Source of the DNA: Cryomorphaceae bacterium
GTDB lineage: Bacteria > Bacteroidota > Bacteroidia > Flavobacteriales > Schleiferiaceae
Assembly: GCA_021298655.1 (NCBI GenBank)
Contig: JAJTFK010000016.1
Location: 1 to 64,000 of the forward strand
Direction of reading: 5' to 3'
Length of the DNA stretch: 64,000 nucleotides
The notes under the pieces are model-generated. The model saw only the letters and a list, made by a program, of their open reading frames with translations. It searched no databases and was not told where the DNA came from. This document shows, piece by piece, positions 5,896 to 13,795 of the stretch (position 1 is the first letter of the stretch; each line of letters opens with the position of its first letter). The translations under genes were made by a program, and so were the position numbers.

Positions 5896-6438
5896 TTAGA
5901 GGCTTGACGCCGCGCTCGCTTCGGGGGCGGAATCGCTCGACGGCTGCGCCGGCGTGGGGTCAAAGCGGAACGGGATTCCGCGGCGGGCTCCGACGTAGCG
6001 GCGCTCGTAGTAGGGCTGGCCCACCCAGTTCTCGATGAGCACGCCGCTGTGGGTGGCCGAGTGCAGCATCAGGATTTTGCCGTCCTGAATGCCGACGCAC
6101 AAGCCGACGTGGCCGATGCTGCCGCTCCCGCGGCCTTCAAAGAGCAGGAAGTCGCCCACCCGAATGCTGTCGCGGGTGATTGGAGTGCCCCAGTTGGCGT
6201 AGGACGAGCTGCTCGCCGGCATCGTGTAGCCGTAGGCGCGAAAAAGGTGCTTTTGGAGCCCCGAACAATCAAAACCCCCCGGATTTTGACCGCCTGCTCG
6301 GTAGGTGTGGCCCAGCACGTCTTCGTAGCGGTCCACCAGCGCCGCCCACGAAACCGTGTCGCGCGGCATGCCGTCGGAGCGGCCCCACAAAAGGGTCGGC
6401 AGGGTGCAGAGGGCGATGAGGAGGGCGAAGTTTTTCAT
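5896..6438 (-). CDS. NlpC/P60 family cell-wall hydrolase
   Basis: Secreted C40-family cysteine peptidase of 180 aa, expected to cut peptidoglycan stem peptides. A signal peptide covers about residues 1-19 (MKNFALLIALCTLPTLLWG). The catalytic Cys58 lies in FDCSG, His110 in IGHVG, and the third polar residue is probably His126 in MLHSA. The last 20 residues are a Ser/Ala/Pro-rich tail. It stands alone and diverges from the PPIase gene at 6506. The periplasmic role is inferred from the family; no partner is adjacent. Confidence 0.88.
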   Translation of the reverse strand: MKNFALLIALCTLPTLLWGRSDGMPRDTVSWAALVDRYEDVLGHTYRAGGQNPGGFDCSGLQKHLFRAYGYTMPASSSSYANWGTPITRDSIRVGDFLLFEGRGSGSIGHVGLCVGIQDGKILMLHSATHSGVLIENWVGQPYYERRYVGARRGIPFRFDPTPAQPSSDSAPEASAASSL

Positions 6439-10810: not shown

Positions 10811-11545
10811 ATGATTTGGATAGCAAAGGCTGTCGTTCAAAAGGGAATTTCTTTTTTGCCCTTTAAAACGCACATTAACCAGTTCTTTCAGCGCCGAGGC
10901 ACCGGTGCCCTCGCCCTCGACGACCAGCACTTTGGTTGGAAGATCGGCCATGCGCAAGATCATTTAGCTTTATGGGATAAGCACCTGTCGGGTATAAATC
11001 GGTCTTCGGCGAATGTACTTGAACTCGGAACGGGGTGGTATCCCATCGTCCCGGTGTACTTCTGGCTTCATGGTGTGATGATCGGACTTCGCACCTTGGT
11101 CGGTGATGCCACATCAGCAATTGCCGGGATGCGCACATCCTATGAGTTCATTTGTTCGAACAATACCCTAGAACACATTCTTGAAGTGCCCTTAGTGGCC
11201 ATTTTGGAGCGTTTTAAGGGGCTACTTTCCGCGGGGGGGGGGAGTTCGCACTTCATCGATCTTTCTGACCATTTTGGCCATTTTGACCGTGGAATTACGG
11301 CGTACAATTTTCTAAAGTTTTCACCCCTTCAGTGGCGTTTAATCGATAACGATATTCAGCCACAAAACCGGCTGCGCTGGCCTCAGTATTTAGAGATTTT
11401 TACCAAATTGGGTTATAACGTGGTAGAAGAAGGGGTTCGTCCTGGCGATGTACAAGAGCTAAAGAAGGTTAAGGTTCATCGTTCGTTTGCCAGAATGTCT
11501 GATTCCGAACTTGCGATCACTCATGGATATATAGTTGCGCGCTAG
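10811..11545 (+). pseudogene. SAM-dependent methyltransferase-like protein with internal deletion
   Basis: A 244-codon frame with the start (FLPFKTHINQFFQ), the SAM motif VLELGTGWYPIVPVYFW and the late blocks (ICSNNTLEHI, SSHFIDLSDHFGHFD, DNDIQPQNRLRW) of methyltransferases found in surface-polysaccharide loci. The segment between the SAM motif and SNNTLEHI is only about 30 residues, roughly 100 fewer than in the intact relatives I recall, so the core fold is incomplete. A tract of ten G (11233-11242) interrupts the frame region and replaces the expected residue after Gly-Gly. Base composition is lower in GC than the neighbours. It is probably non-functional, although the frame is open. Confidence 0.6.
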
Positions 11546-11560
11546 CTACGCGAAAATGCT

Positions 11561-11708
11561 ACGGAAGTAGAGGGGGATTCGCCCCCCCCGGAACTGTTAG
11601 CAAGTGAATTGCGCGATCTGCTCATCGTGTCTCTAAGGTATTAAAAGTATTGGCATTGGATTTTTGGGCGTTTCTAGCAGCCACCTACAATAATATTGAT
11701 GGTTAGTA
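11561..11708 (-). repeat. tRNA-tailed repeat, copy A
   Basis: About 148 bp. Read on the minus strand, it begins with the block AATATTATTGTAGGTGGCTG and ends in a degenerate tRNA T-arm and acceptor end (CGAATCCCCCTCTACTTCC). It is a direct repeat of copy D at 13145-13287, with about four of five bases the same by eye. It abuts the transposase remnant. The T-stem is damaged by a C8 tract at 11582-11589. Confidence 0.75.
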
Positions 11709-11709
11709 G

Positions 11710-11922
11710 ATATATGATGCCGTCAACGTCATGCAGTGGTTTGTGGAGGATTACAACAACCGCCCCCATACGGTCCACAAGATATTTTCGCCCAACGAAG
11801 TGTATGCGGGCACCGACACCTATGATTACCAGTCTGTACTCAAAAAGGGCATGGCTAACCGGCGGATGGTCAATTCACAATGTGCTTGTACCAAGTGCAT
11901 TTGTGGCGACGCAACCTCGTAG
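11710..11922 (+). pseudogene. C-terminal remnant of an IS transposase (rve/DDE type)
   Basis: About 70 codons after an in-frame stop at 11707. VMQWFVEDYNNRPHTVHKI followed by FSPNEVYAG is the typical end of an integrase-core (IS3/IS481-like) transposase. It is followed by a Cys-rich tail (CACTKCICG). The catalytic DDE core is absent. The remnant starts exactly where repeat copy A ends and is followed by inverted copy B, so repeats of opposite orientation flank it. Confidence 0.75.
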
Positions 11923-11985
11923 TGCCTTTCGGGCGGAACCCCATTTATCAGAGCCGTTGAACCACGCTGGGTTCGTCGCAAAACC

Positions 11986-12122
11986 TACAATATCATTGTA
12001 GGTGGCTGCTGGAAATGCCCGAAGTTCCAGCTGACTCGTTACTAGGCTGTTAGTATAGAAGCCTTTTTAGTCTATTGTAGTGATTGTTAACTGTACCGCG
12101 GGTTCGAATCCCGCCCTCACCG
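11986..12122 (+). repeat. tRNA-tailed repeat, copy B (intact tRNA 3' end)
   Basis: Starts with ATTGTAGGTGGCTGCTGGAA, the same block as A and D but in inverse orientation. After about 70 variable bases it ends in a perfect tRNA 3' end: T-stem GCGGG (12098-12102), loop TTCGAAT, stem CCCGC, acceptor strand CCTCACC (12115-12121) and discriminator G. No matching 5' acceptor GGTGAGG or D-arm is found upstream, so this is not a full tRNA gene. Confidence 0.75.
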
Positions 12123-12139
12123 CAGCGGGATGTGCCGGA

Positions 12140-12279
12140 GGTATTACAATGTAATTTAGGTGGCCCCTGGAAGTGCCTGAAGTTAGAACTGATACGTTGA
12201 CAAGCAGTTAATATATGTGATTATCAGTATGTTGTGGTGATGGTTAACTGTACCCCAAGTTCGAATTGCTCCCTCACCG
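12140..12279 (+). repeat. tRNA-tailed repeat, copy C (diverged)
   Basis: Tandem, diverged copy of B: AATTTAGGTGGCCCCTGGAAGTGCC at its start aligns with the conserved block. GGTTAACTGTACC...AGTTCGAATTG...CCTCACCG at its end aligns with the tRNA 3' end of B. The T-stem is no longer paired. Together, B and C fill the otherwise gene-free stretch 11923-12331; 12280-12331 holds only AT-rich sequence with no recognised feature. Confidence 0.65.
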
Positions 12280-12331
12280 ACTCAGTCACAATTTGTCTAC
12301 CCCATTAACATATTTAACTAATCATATAGTA

Positions 12332-12859
12332 TTAATTGATCCTATACTTAATTGTAAGCGCAATTTCTTCATGCAAAATAGTCGAGTAATTCCGGTATGA
12401 ATCATTGTGTAAAAACCATATTGCACCGAATCCAATTCCAATATAAATACTTTTACAAAGCAAGGTTTCAGTATTTAAGAATGTTGTTGGAATCATGAAC
12501 CATCTTACATTACCACCATAATTATAAGATTGAGCTTTATAGGCCATTGTACCACACCGTAAATCAACTTGAAGTCTTTCAAAAATCATAAGATGTGTAT
12601 TCAAATCGGCACCGATTGCAAAGCCTTTCAATGGAATCGCAAAAAGCGGTGGTTGCTCGTCCCATGCCTGATCTAGGAATCGACAGTGAACCATATAACT
12701 CTGTTTGGTCCAAAGTTCCTTTTCAATAAATAAAATGTGATCCCTATTGGGCCCACTTGTCCTCATTTCATAACCAAAATTGACCCACTCACTTTGCGCG
12801 AAGACCACAATTGAATGAATCATAATCGCTATTAAAAAGTGTAACTTACCAATATGCAT
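12332..12859 (-). CDS. Hypothetical exported protein, AT-rich
   Basis: A 175-codon ORF with a plausible signal peptide (HFLIAIMIHSIVVFAQ, about 7-22) and alternating hydrophobic residues compatible with beta strands. I do not recognise a family. Codon use is strikingly AT-rich compared with the roughly 60 % GC of the flanking genome, which indicates recent acquisition. It lies 6 bp downstream of the GH16-like fragment in the same direction and could have been part of the same imported segment. Confidence 0.5.
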   Translation of the reverse strand: MHIGKLHFLIAIMIHSIVVFAQSEWVNFGYEMRTSGPNRDHILFIEKELWTKQSYMVHCRFLDQAWDEQPPLFAIPLKGFAIGADLNTHLMIFERLQVDLRCGTMAYKAQSYNYGGNVRWFMIPTTFLNTETLLCKSIYIGIGFGAIWFLHNDSYRNYSTILHEEIALTIKYRIN

Positions 12860-12865
12860 ATTAAC

Positions 12866-13138
12866 TTACATATTTTGATATACTCTAATGTTGTCTATAA
12901 ACATTGTTGCAGTCTCAAAAGGTTTATCATCACCACATTCACTATTTGCGCTAAATGAATCCATGACGCCATTATTCAGAACTATTCGCATCGTAACGTC
13001 TGGATTATTGTACAAAAGCGGTAAATCAGGAGAACAATAATCTCTGTATAGAATGCCATCATAATAGACTCTAACAAAATCAGAAGTCCAATGAAGAGCA
13101 AAATGAACAAATCGATAAGGCGACGCAAACAATTTCAT
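12866..13138 (-). pseudogene. C-terminal fragment of a GH16/LamG-like domain protein
   Basis: Ninety codons that resemble the last part of a glycoside-hydrolase-16 / concanavalin-like lectin domain. HFALHWTSDFVRVYYDG corresponds to the 'EWTPDxIxFYVDG' strand and MFIDNIRVYQ to the terminal 'VDYVRVYQ' strand. The catalytic ExDxxE region is missing. The frame runs into the tRNA-like end of repeat copy D just upstream, where an in-frame stop appears, so the gene seems to have been cut at its 5' side by that repeat. Strongly AT-rich. Confidence 0.55.
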
Positions 13139-13144
13139 CGGCCT

Positions 13145-13287
13145 CGGAAGAAGAGGGATTCGAACCCCCGGAACTTTTAGTTAGTGAAAAGCGCGATCTG
13201 CTCATCGTATCTCTAAGGTACTAAAAATAACGACATTGGATTTTTGGGCGATTCCAGCAGCCACCTACAATAATATTGGAGGTAAGT
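13145..13287 (-). repeat. tRNA-tailed repeat, copy D
   Basis: Direct repeat of copy A (11561-11708). The best-preserved shared stretches are around 13190-13220 (GCGCGATCTGCTCATCGTnT) and 13235-13278. On the minus strand it ends in a well-formed tRNA T-arm, GGGGG TTCGAAT CCCTC, plus acceptor strand TTCTTCC and discriminator G at the 13145 side. The 13288-13358 stretch between it and the tmRNA terminator shows no feature. Confidence 0.75.
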
Positions 13288-13401: not shown

Positions 13402-13795
13402 TGGTGGAGCTGGTGGGATTTGAACCCACGTCCAAACAAGGAAACCATGCGCTTTCTACATGCTTAGTGGATCATTGGTTTTCGATCGAAGGCCGGGGAG
13501 CCACACCCTACCTTAAACTTAGCCACTACAATTTAAGAAGCCCTCAGTGGCCGGTGGCTTCCGGTTCCCGCATTTACGGCACCCCTTGATCGAACTCCGT
13601 GGGACCGGGATTTCGAGGGATGTCCTGCTTTCACACCTTGTGCGAAACAAGCCAAATCTCCTATCGGATGATTAGGCGGCAAGAGCGTAGTTGTACTCGC
13701 CTGTTGTTGTTCCCTGCATCGATTTACGAGCGACATCAGGATAGCTCGGCATGCTTACACACCGCCTCGGCTTGCTGTCAAAACCGGTCAGCCCC
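13402..13795 (-). ncRNA. ssrA: Transfer-messenger RNA (tmRNA)
   Basis: 394-nt tmRNA. The 5' end GGGGCTGACCGGTTTTGACA pairs with the 3' end ...CAGCTCC-A-CCA to form the acceptor stem; the CCA is encoded at 13404-13402. The 3' end has the T-arm GTGGG TTCAAAT CCCAC. The tag reading frame ends GGC GAG TAC AAC TAC GCT CTT GCC GCC TAA, giving a tag ending GEYNYALAA close to the Bacteroidota GENNYALAA type. The resume codon is not certain; an in-frame GGA ACA ACA ACA precedes the GGC. The first 8 nt overlap the end of plsC. tmRNA with SmpB rescues stalled ribosomes. Confidence 0.97.

Follow-up and report, generated by a model that had tools for sequence, protein, structure and literature searches.

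Units with a conserved arm and a tRNA-Ser 3' end bound variable cargo in a Cryomorphaceae bacterium and its relatives

Four units between a host gene and ssrA

The window analysed here, a stretch of 64,000 nucleotides from a Cryomorphaceae genome (G000), contains four related units of about 140 bp between a host gene and the terminator of the tmRNA gene ssrA (13402..13795, minus strand); directly past this terminator comes the insertion that carries the units. Unit A (11562..11704, minus strand) has its head at 11704 and a decayed 3' end of the tRNA-Ser(TGA/GGA) type at 11562. Unit B (11983..12122, plus strand) consists of the head palindrome ACCTACAATATCATTGTAGGT with the conserved block, a variable middle and a tRNA-Ser(GCT) 3' end. 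Unit C (12142..12279, plus strand) is a decayed direct copy of B that starts 19 bp past it, and unit D (13145..13284, minus strand) has its head at 13284, facing ssrA, and a tRNA-Ser(TGA/GGA)-type 3' end at 13145. An earlier, sequence-only reading of this DNA had described four copies that share one block and end in tRNA-like sequence, with B and D well formed and A and C decayed; we recovered all four at these places and on these strands, in the same states of preservation.

The common block corresponds to a head of about 50 bp, present in all four units, in which the palindrome is followed by GGCTGCTGGAA and then GCCC. A tRNA 3' end closes each unit about 100 bp past the head, and the general plan can be given as a head arm of about 50 bp (palindrome and block) and a tRNA-Ser 3'-end core, with about 50-60 bp of spacer between them. 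Over their full length, A and D are 83-85% identical and B and C 74%.

The tails of C and D face each other across AT-rich cargo (12280..13144), which comprises a 175-aa ORF without a Pfam match (12332..12859, minus strand) and the C-terminal fragment of a GH16-like protein (12866..13144, minus strand), whose reading frame reaches the tail end of unit D. Between the head of A and that of B there is a 66-aa frame (11720..11922, plus strand) that had been called a transposase tail, a likeness seen by eye alone; a Pfam search with it gave no match. A methyltransferase-like ORF at 10811-11545 of the window is about 189 bp (in frame) shorter than its homologue beside ssrA in the congener G019.

The tRNA-like ends proved genuine. 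The 36-nt tail stretch of B (12088..12123, plus strand) covers the end of the V-arm, the T-arm, the acceptor strand and the discriminator, and matches the tRNA-Ser(GCT) genes found in congeners at every position (100% over 35-36 nt, E about 3e-12). In the tail of D, 35 nt are 94% identical to tRNA-Ser(TGA) and tRNA-Ser(GGA) genes (E about 5e-9). With anticodons identified by ARAGORN, the parent of B and C is tRNA-Ser(GCT) and that of A and D tRNA-Ser(TGA/GGA), so the proposal of two different tRNAs stands as far as distinct genes are concerned, but both are serine isoacceptors. Intact parent genes exist in congeners but are missing from the window's own assembly (1.6 Mb, 45 contigs), where tRNA-Ser(CGA) is the sole tRNA-Ser. 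This is likely an assembly gap, since xerD, which lies about 2.5 kb from tRNA-Ser(TGA) in congeners, was not found in that assembly either. As had been observed, no tRNA 5' half precedes any unit; the window contains none, and its only tRNA-type gene is the tmRNA. Set against the near or full identity of the B and D tails to present-day tRNA-Ser, the middles have diverged by 2-38% among related units, which is the pattern expected if the core kept matching the tRNA or was renewed from it. Several unit cores are decayed.

The borders of the unit are unlike each other. On the tail side, units of the same type are alike through the discriminator G, after which identity over the next 40 nt is 36-51%, the random value being 43%; type-4 units share four further bases (GGGC) past the discriminator. 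The DNA beyond the tail is unrelated cargo, different in every copy, and does not correspond to a tRNA 3' flank. Two cargo genes are cut at this border, with the C-terminus of the GH16-like protein at the tail of D and that of an AraC protein at the tail of u2 in G046. The head-side border is formed by the palindrome, whose pairing is modestly supported: 78% of the cells are paired, with a few two-sided changes, and 7 of 500 shuffles were as good.

Distribution, arrangement and settings of the units

To find further units we used a covariance model built from the aligned heads alone, which left the tRNA tail as a separate test. Among the 88 family genomes, one per species, five from two genera yielded units, 17 in all; the block recurs in related genomes. 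A search of 396 genomes of the order returned no units outside these five carriers (the other 391 were empty), and a search of 395 genomes of the class added one contig, G644:C35. All genomes are fragmented MAGs, in which several modules run off contig ends and much of the cargo lacks an end. Within 110 nt, the best match to a T-arm lay 50-53 nt past the head model for 15 of the 17 units. For the six units found by the model outside its training set, the offset was 51-52 nt in five, some of these matches being weak (8-9 of 13 positions). Of the two units in the G644 contig, unit e, to which only the head model had pointed, shows a perfect T-arm (offset 52), and of unit f only the head remains. 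As to whether every occurrence of the block carries a tRNA 3' end, this holds for 15 of 17 units and for one of the two in G644. Of u2 in G020 only the tail half remains.

The G644 contig (7.2 kb) comes from a genome of another family, and its ssrA locus is 87-89% identical to that of the window's genus. As judged from this likeness it is probably mis-binned, and for that reason we did not count it as spread to another order. Weak head matches in G022, G039, G040 and G080 (E 0.03-0.08), without a tRNA tail by eye, were taken as chance. Distant blastn searches of phage and plasmid collections gave no match, nor did a search of viral contigs with the head pattern; in genome contigs the pattern found only two relatives, both already known. 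A near-identical type-1 unit occurs in G007, G046 and G001, in different settings.

The typical arrangement is [head>tail] cargo [tail<head], with the tails toward AT-rich cargo and the heads toward host DNA or an att region. The order is A-, B+, C+, D- in the window, c-, a+, b- in G007, u1-, u2+ in G020:C39 (contig reversed), u4-, u3+ in G020:C17, u1+, u2- in G046, u3-, u2- in G001:C124 and e-, f- in the G644 contig. Neighbouring pairs are inverted in seven cases out of ten, the three direct ones being B-C, u3-u2 of G001 and e-f of G644. Three tail-facing modules are complete, namely C-D (865 bp), a-b of G007 (about 1.85 kb) and u1-u2 of G046 (about 1.9 kb), and each pairs units of unlike type. 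It is these facing tails around cargo that form consistent pairs, and not A and D, which had been proposed as element ends; A and D are direct repeats, but alike over the whole unit and not in the core alone. An interpretation of neighbouring units as the attL/attR pair of one element was rejected for C-D, neighbours being mostly inverted, and a division into left-end and right-end unit classes found no clean separation in a tree. The cargo varies, and includes the GH16 fragment, a DUF6973 lipoprotein, an old-yellow-enzyme/HxlR combination, an LRR protein, a beta-lactamase-fold protein and a pair assigned by sequence as HipB/HipA-like. The units are thus discrete, occur in different settings and genera, carry the core at a fixed distance from the head, and enclose cargo that varies.

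Two settings recur. In the window, in G007 and in the G644 contig, a host gene borders the units on one side and the ssrA terminator on the other, and in G020:C39 they lie beside the same 677-aa host gene on a contig that stops before ssrA; the congeners G004, G006 and G019 have the same ssrA neighbourhood without units. The heads of the units in G020:C17, G001:C124, G046:C22 and G046:C99 adjoin a conserved region in which direct-repeat arms flank the 3' half of tRNA-Arg(CCT), and the same region follows an intact tRNA-Arg(CCT) in G006 and G001:C115. Integrase-less tRNA-Arg elements thus carry units in some cases and also occur unit-free. The window's genome has no such arm-repeat region. Borders of the tRNA-Arg(CCT) islands were located at 2405-2664 of L148 (G020:C17), 1502-1705 of L188, 362-581 of L189 and 1-264 of L190; their arms are the direct repeats GTCAGCGCAAAAGTCAGCGCAAA and GGAGCAAAAGTTGGAGCAAAC, and no integrase was found nearby. 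There is a second complete copy in L148, which comes after a tRNA-Arg 5' half.

Recombinases and possible origins of the units

No recombinase gene was found next to any unit. XerC, encoded at another place on the contig, is the only PF00589 protein of the window's genome, XerD being probably unassembled; this genome contains no element integrase. The carriers have two non-Xer integrases (G007:C151 and G001:C14), neither of a type common to all carriers, and no unit was found when both stretches were read. The enzyme in G007:C151 (L166, 4367-5296) is a 309-aa tyrosine recombinase that scores best with the XerA and integron-integrase families, below their cut-offs; it is followed by a 131-nt attC-like hairpin site (5966-6096), giving an integron-like locus in a congener. 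That in G001:C14 (L165, 479-1756) is a 426-aa phage-type integrase; its gene follows an intact tRNA-Ser(GCT) at a distance of a few hundred bp, and four units are present in the same genome. A strong 132-nt attC-like hairpin (4518-4649 of L148) adjoins the tail of u4 in G020:C17, at the end of a beta-lactamase-fold gene; none stands out in the window or in the G007 modules. The units were also considered as Xer/dif sites and rejected: the best dif match was 13-15 of 28 positions against 13.7 for random sequence, with the E. coli dif as a reference that may not be the host's.

Our preferred explanation, to which we give a probability of about 0.45, is that the units are att-derived sites, composed of a tRNA-Ser core and a conserved arm, which bound integrase-less cargo modules and are worked in trans. 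Each unit would be a discrete, horizontally moving site module, its core being the copied 3' end of a tRNA-Ser gene that stops at the discriminator. This core would descend from the attP of tRNA-Ser-targeting integrative elements and would be the substrate of a trans-acting tyrosine recombinase. We infer that recombination takes place in the tRNA end because T-stem crossovers are common in tRNA genomic islands (PMC4383910), because the tails stay tRNA-like while the middles drift, and because the cargo changes at this point. In the window, C>cargo<D would make up one module, and A and B may be remnants of a second one that accreted beside it between the host gene and ssrA. Given flanking sites that are inverted and unlike in type, the enclosed cargo could be exchangeable for other cargo. 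A bolder extension, which we consider possible but doubtful, is natural cassette exchange, in which foreign genes held between two inverted, heterotypic sites of tRNA-Ser end plus arm are swapped by a trans-acting recombinase, separately from integrons and dif modules. In these MAGs we saw no excised circle, no exchange of cassettes between strains and no pair of loci with the same arms and swapped cargo.

The sequence-only reading had suggested attachment-site scars or a small tRNA-tailed mobile element. In the scar explanation the units are attR junctions left by tRNA-Ser-targeting elements with a common end, whose islands were later deleted and rearranged into hotspots at ssrA and tRNA-Arg. 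A plain scar is expected downstream of an intact tRNA gene, whose displaced fragment should keep the orientation of the gene, and as a rule an integrase should be present. The tails are indeed tRNA-Ser 3' ends with real parents, the tRNA-Arg(CCT) islands with arm repeats and a tRNA core in the same genomes show that such elements exist, and T-stem crossovers are frequent in islands (PMC4383910). An origin from tRNA attachment sites is therefore compatible with the data, but plain scars are unsupported, since the unit-bearing stretches examined contain no intact tRNA-Ser, no integrase lies beside the units, the DNA past the tails differs from copy to copy and is not a tRNA 3' flank, and most neighbouring units point in opposite directions; we regard this explanation as a minority, but live, possibility. 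The alternative of a small tRNA-tailed element agrees with the recurrence of the units, their fixed spacing and their real parent tRNAs.

Another explanation is that of terminal inverted repeats of a transposon- or MITE-like element. Each unit would then be the end of a cargo-carrying element, with a captured tRNA part that has no role, and some transposase would mobilise it. This would explain why the units have discrete ends on either side in more than one context, why cargo lies within inverted pairs and why a palindrome marks the outer edge, but the two ends of a unit are unlike, the tail stays near the host tRNA genes while the middle drifts, and cargo genes are cut on the inner side. Moreover, by eye we noticed no target-site duplication at the heads, and the complete modules contain no transposase, so that we consider such an origin unlikely, though, like the scars, a live alternative. 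A structured RNA or a SINE-like, tRNA-derived retroelement carrying a tRNA 3' end would fit a sequence that reaches just to the end of the mature tRNA, without the CCA, and shuffled versions of units B and G007b fold somewhat less well than the units themselves (z -2.2 and -2.4). D, however, is no better than its shuffles, the units have no Rfam match, and the cargo is enclosed by paired inverted units. Nor does the whole 140-nt unit have a consensus fold (-0.84 kcal/mol, no covarying pair), conserved folding being confined to the head palindrome and the T-arm, and we judge an RNA or retroelement origin highly improbable.

If the tails recombine, these small-genome freshwater bacteria could trade genes in a simple way, via sites copied from a universally kept tRNA, and this would explain how small integrase-less islands form and change their cargo. 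If the units are a mere family of scars, they still cleanly mark the former presence of tRNA-Ser-targeting elements at the ssrA hotspot.

Relation to known mobile systems

Inverted, unlike sites around cargo recall the recombinase-mediated cassette exchange used in the laboratory. A similar natural arrangement is that of dif modules, such as the pdif-bounded modules of Acinetobacter plasmids (PMC13141974). There too a cargo of one to few genes is flanked by inversely oriented sites, neighbouring sites mostly alternate, some cargo is of the toxin-antitoxin type and the module lacks a recombinase. The sites themselves differ, a dif site being a 28-bp (11+6+11) target of XerC/XerD and ours a tRNA-Ser 3' end with an arm of about 50 bp placed about 50-60 bp away. 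Dif modules reside on Rep_3 plasmids, whereas the units occupy chromosomal hotspots and are putative recombination sites.

Genomic islands at tRNA and tmRNA genes (Islander; PMC4383910) share with the units a border formed by a tRNA 3'-end copy, a position next to ssrA or tRNA genes, and tandem accretion. Unlike these islands, the units have neither an intact tRNA-Ser at the other border nor an integrase, and their border fragments are inverted, derive from several isoacceptors and carry a conserved arm. Nearer at hand are the CIME-like tRNA-Arg(CCT) elements of the same genomes, in which arm repeats and a tRNA core likewise bound small cargo, and inside or next to which the units of G020, G001 and G046 lie. 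They differ in that the tRNA-Arg core extends from the anticodon to the 3' end, in direct orientation and with direct-repeat arms, and they do not occur in the window. Integron cassettes, finally, resemble the modules in carrying single-gene accessory cargo bounded by recombination sites, and u4 of G020 abuts an attC-like site; in our modules, in contrast, the sites stand at both ends and are inverted, and an attC-like fold stands out at no other unit.
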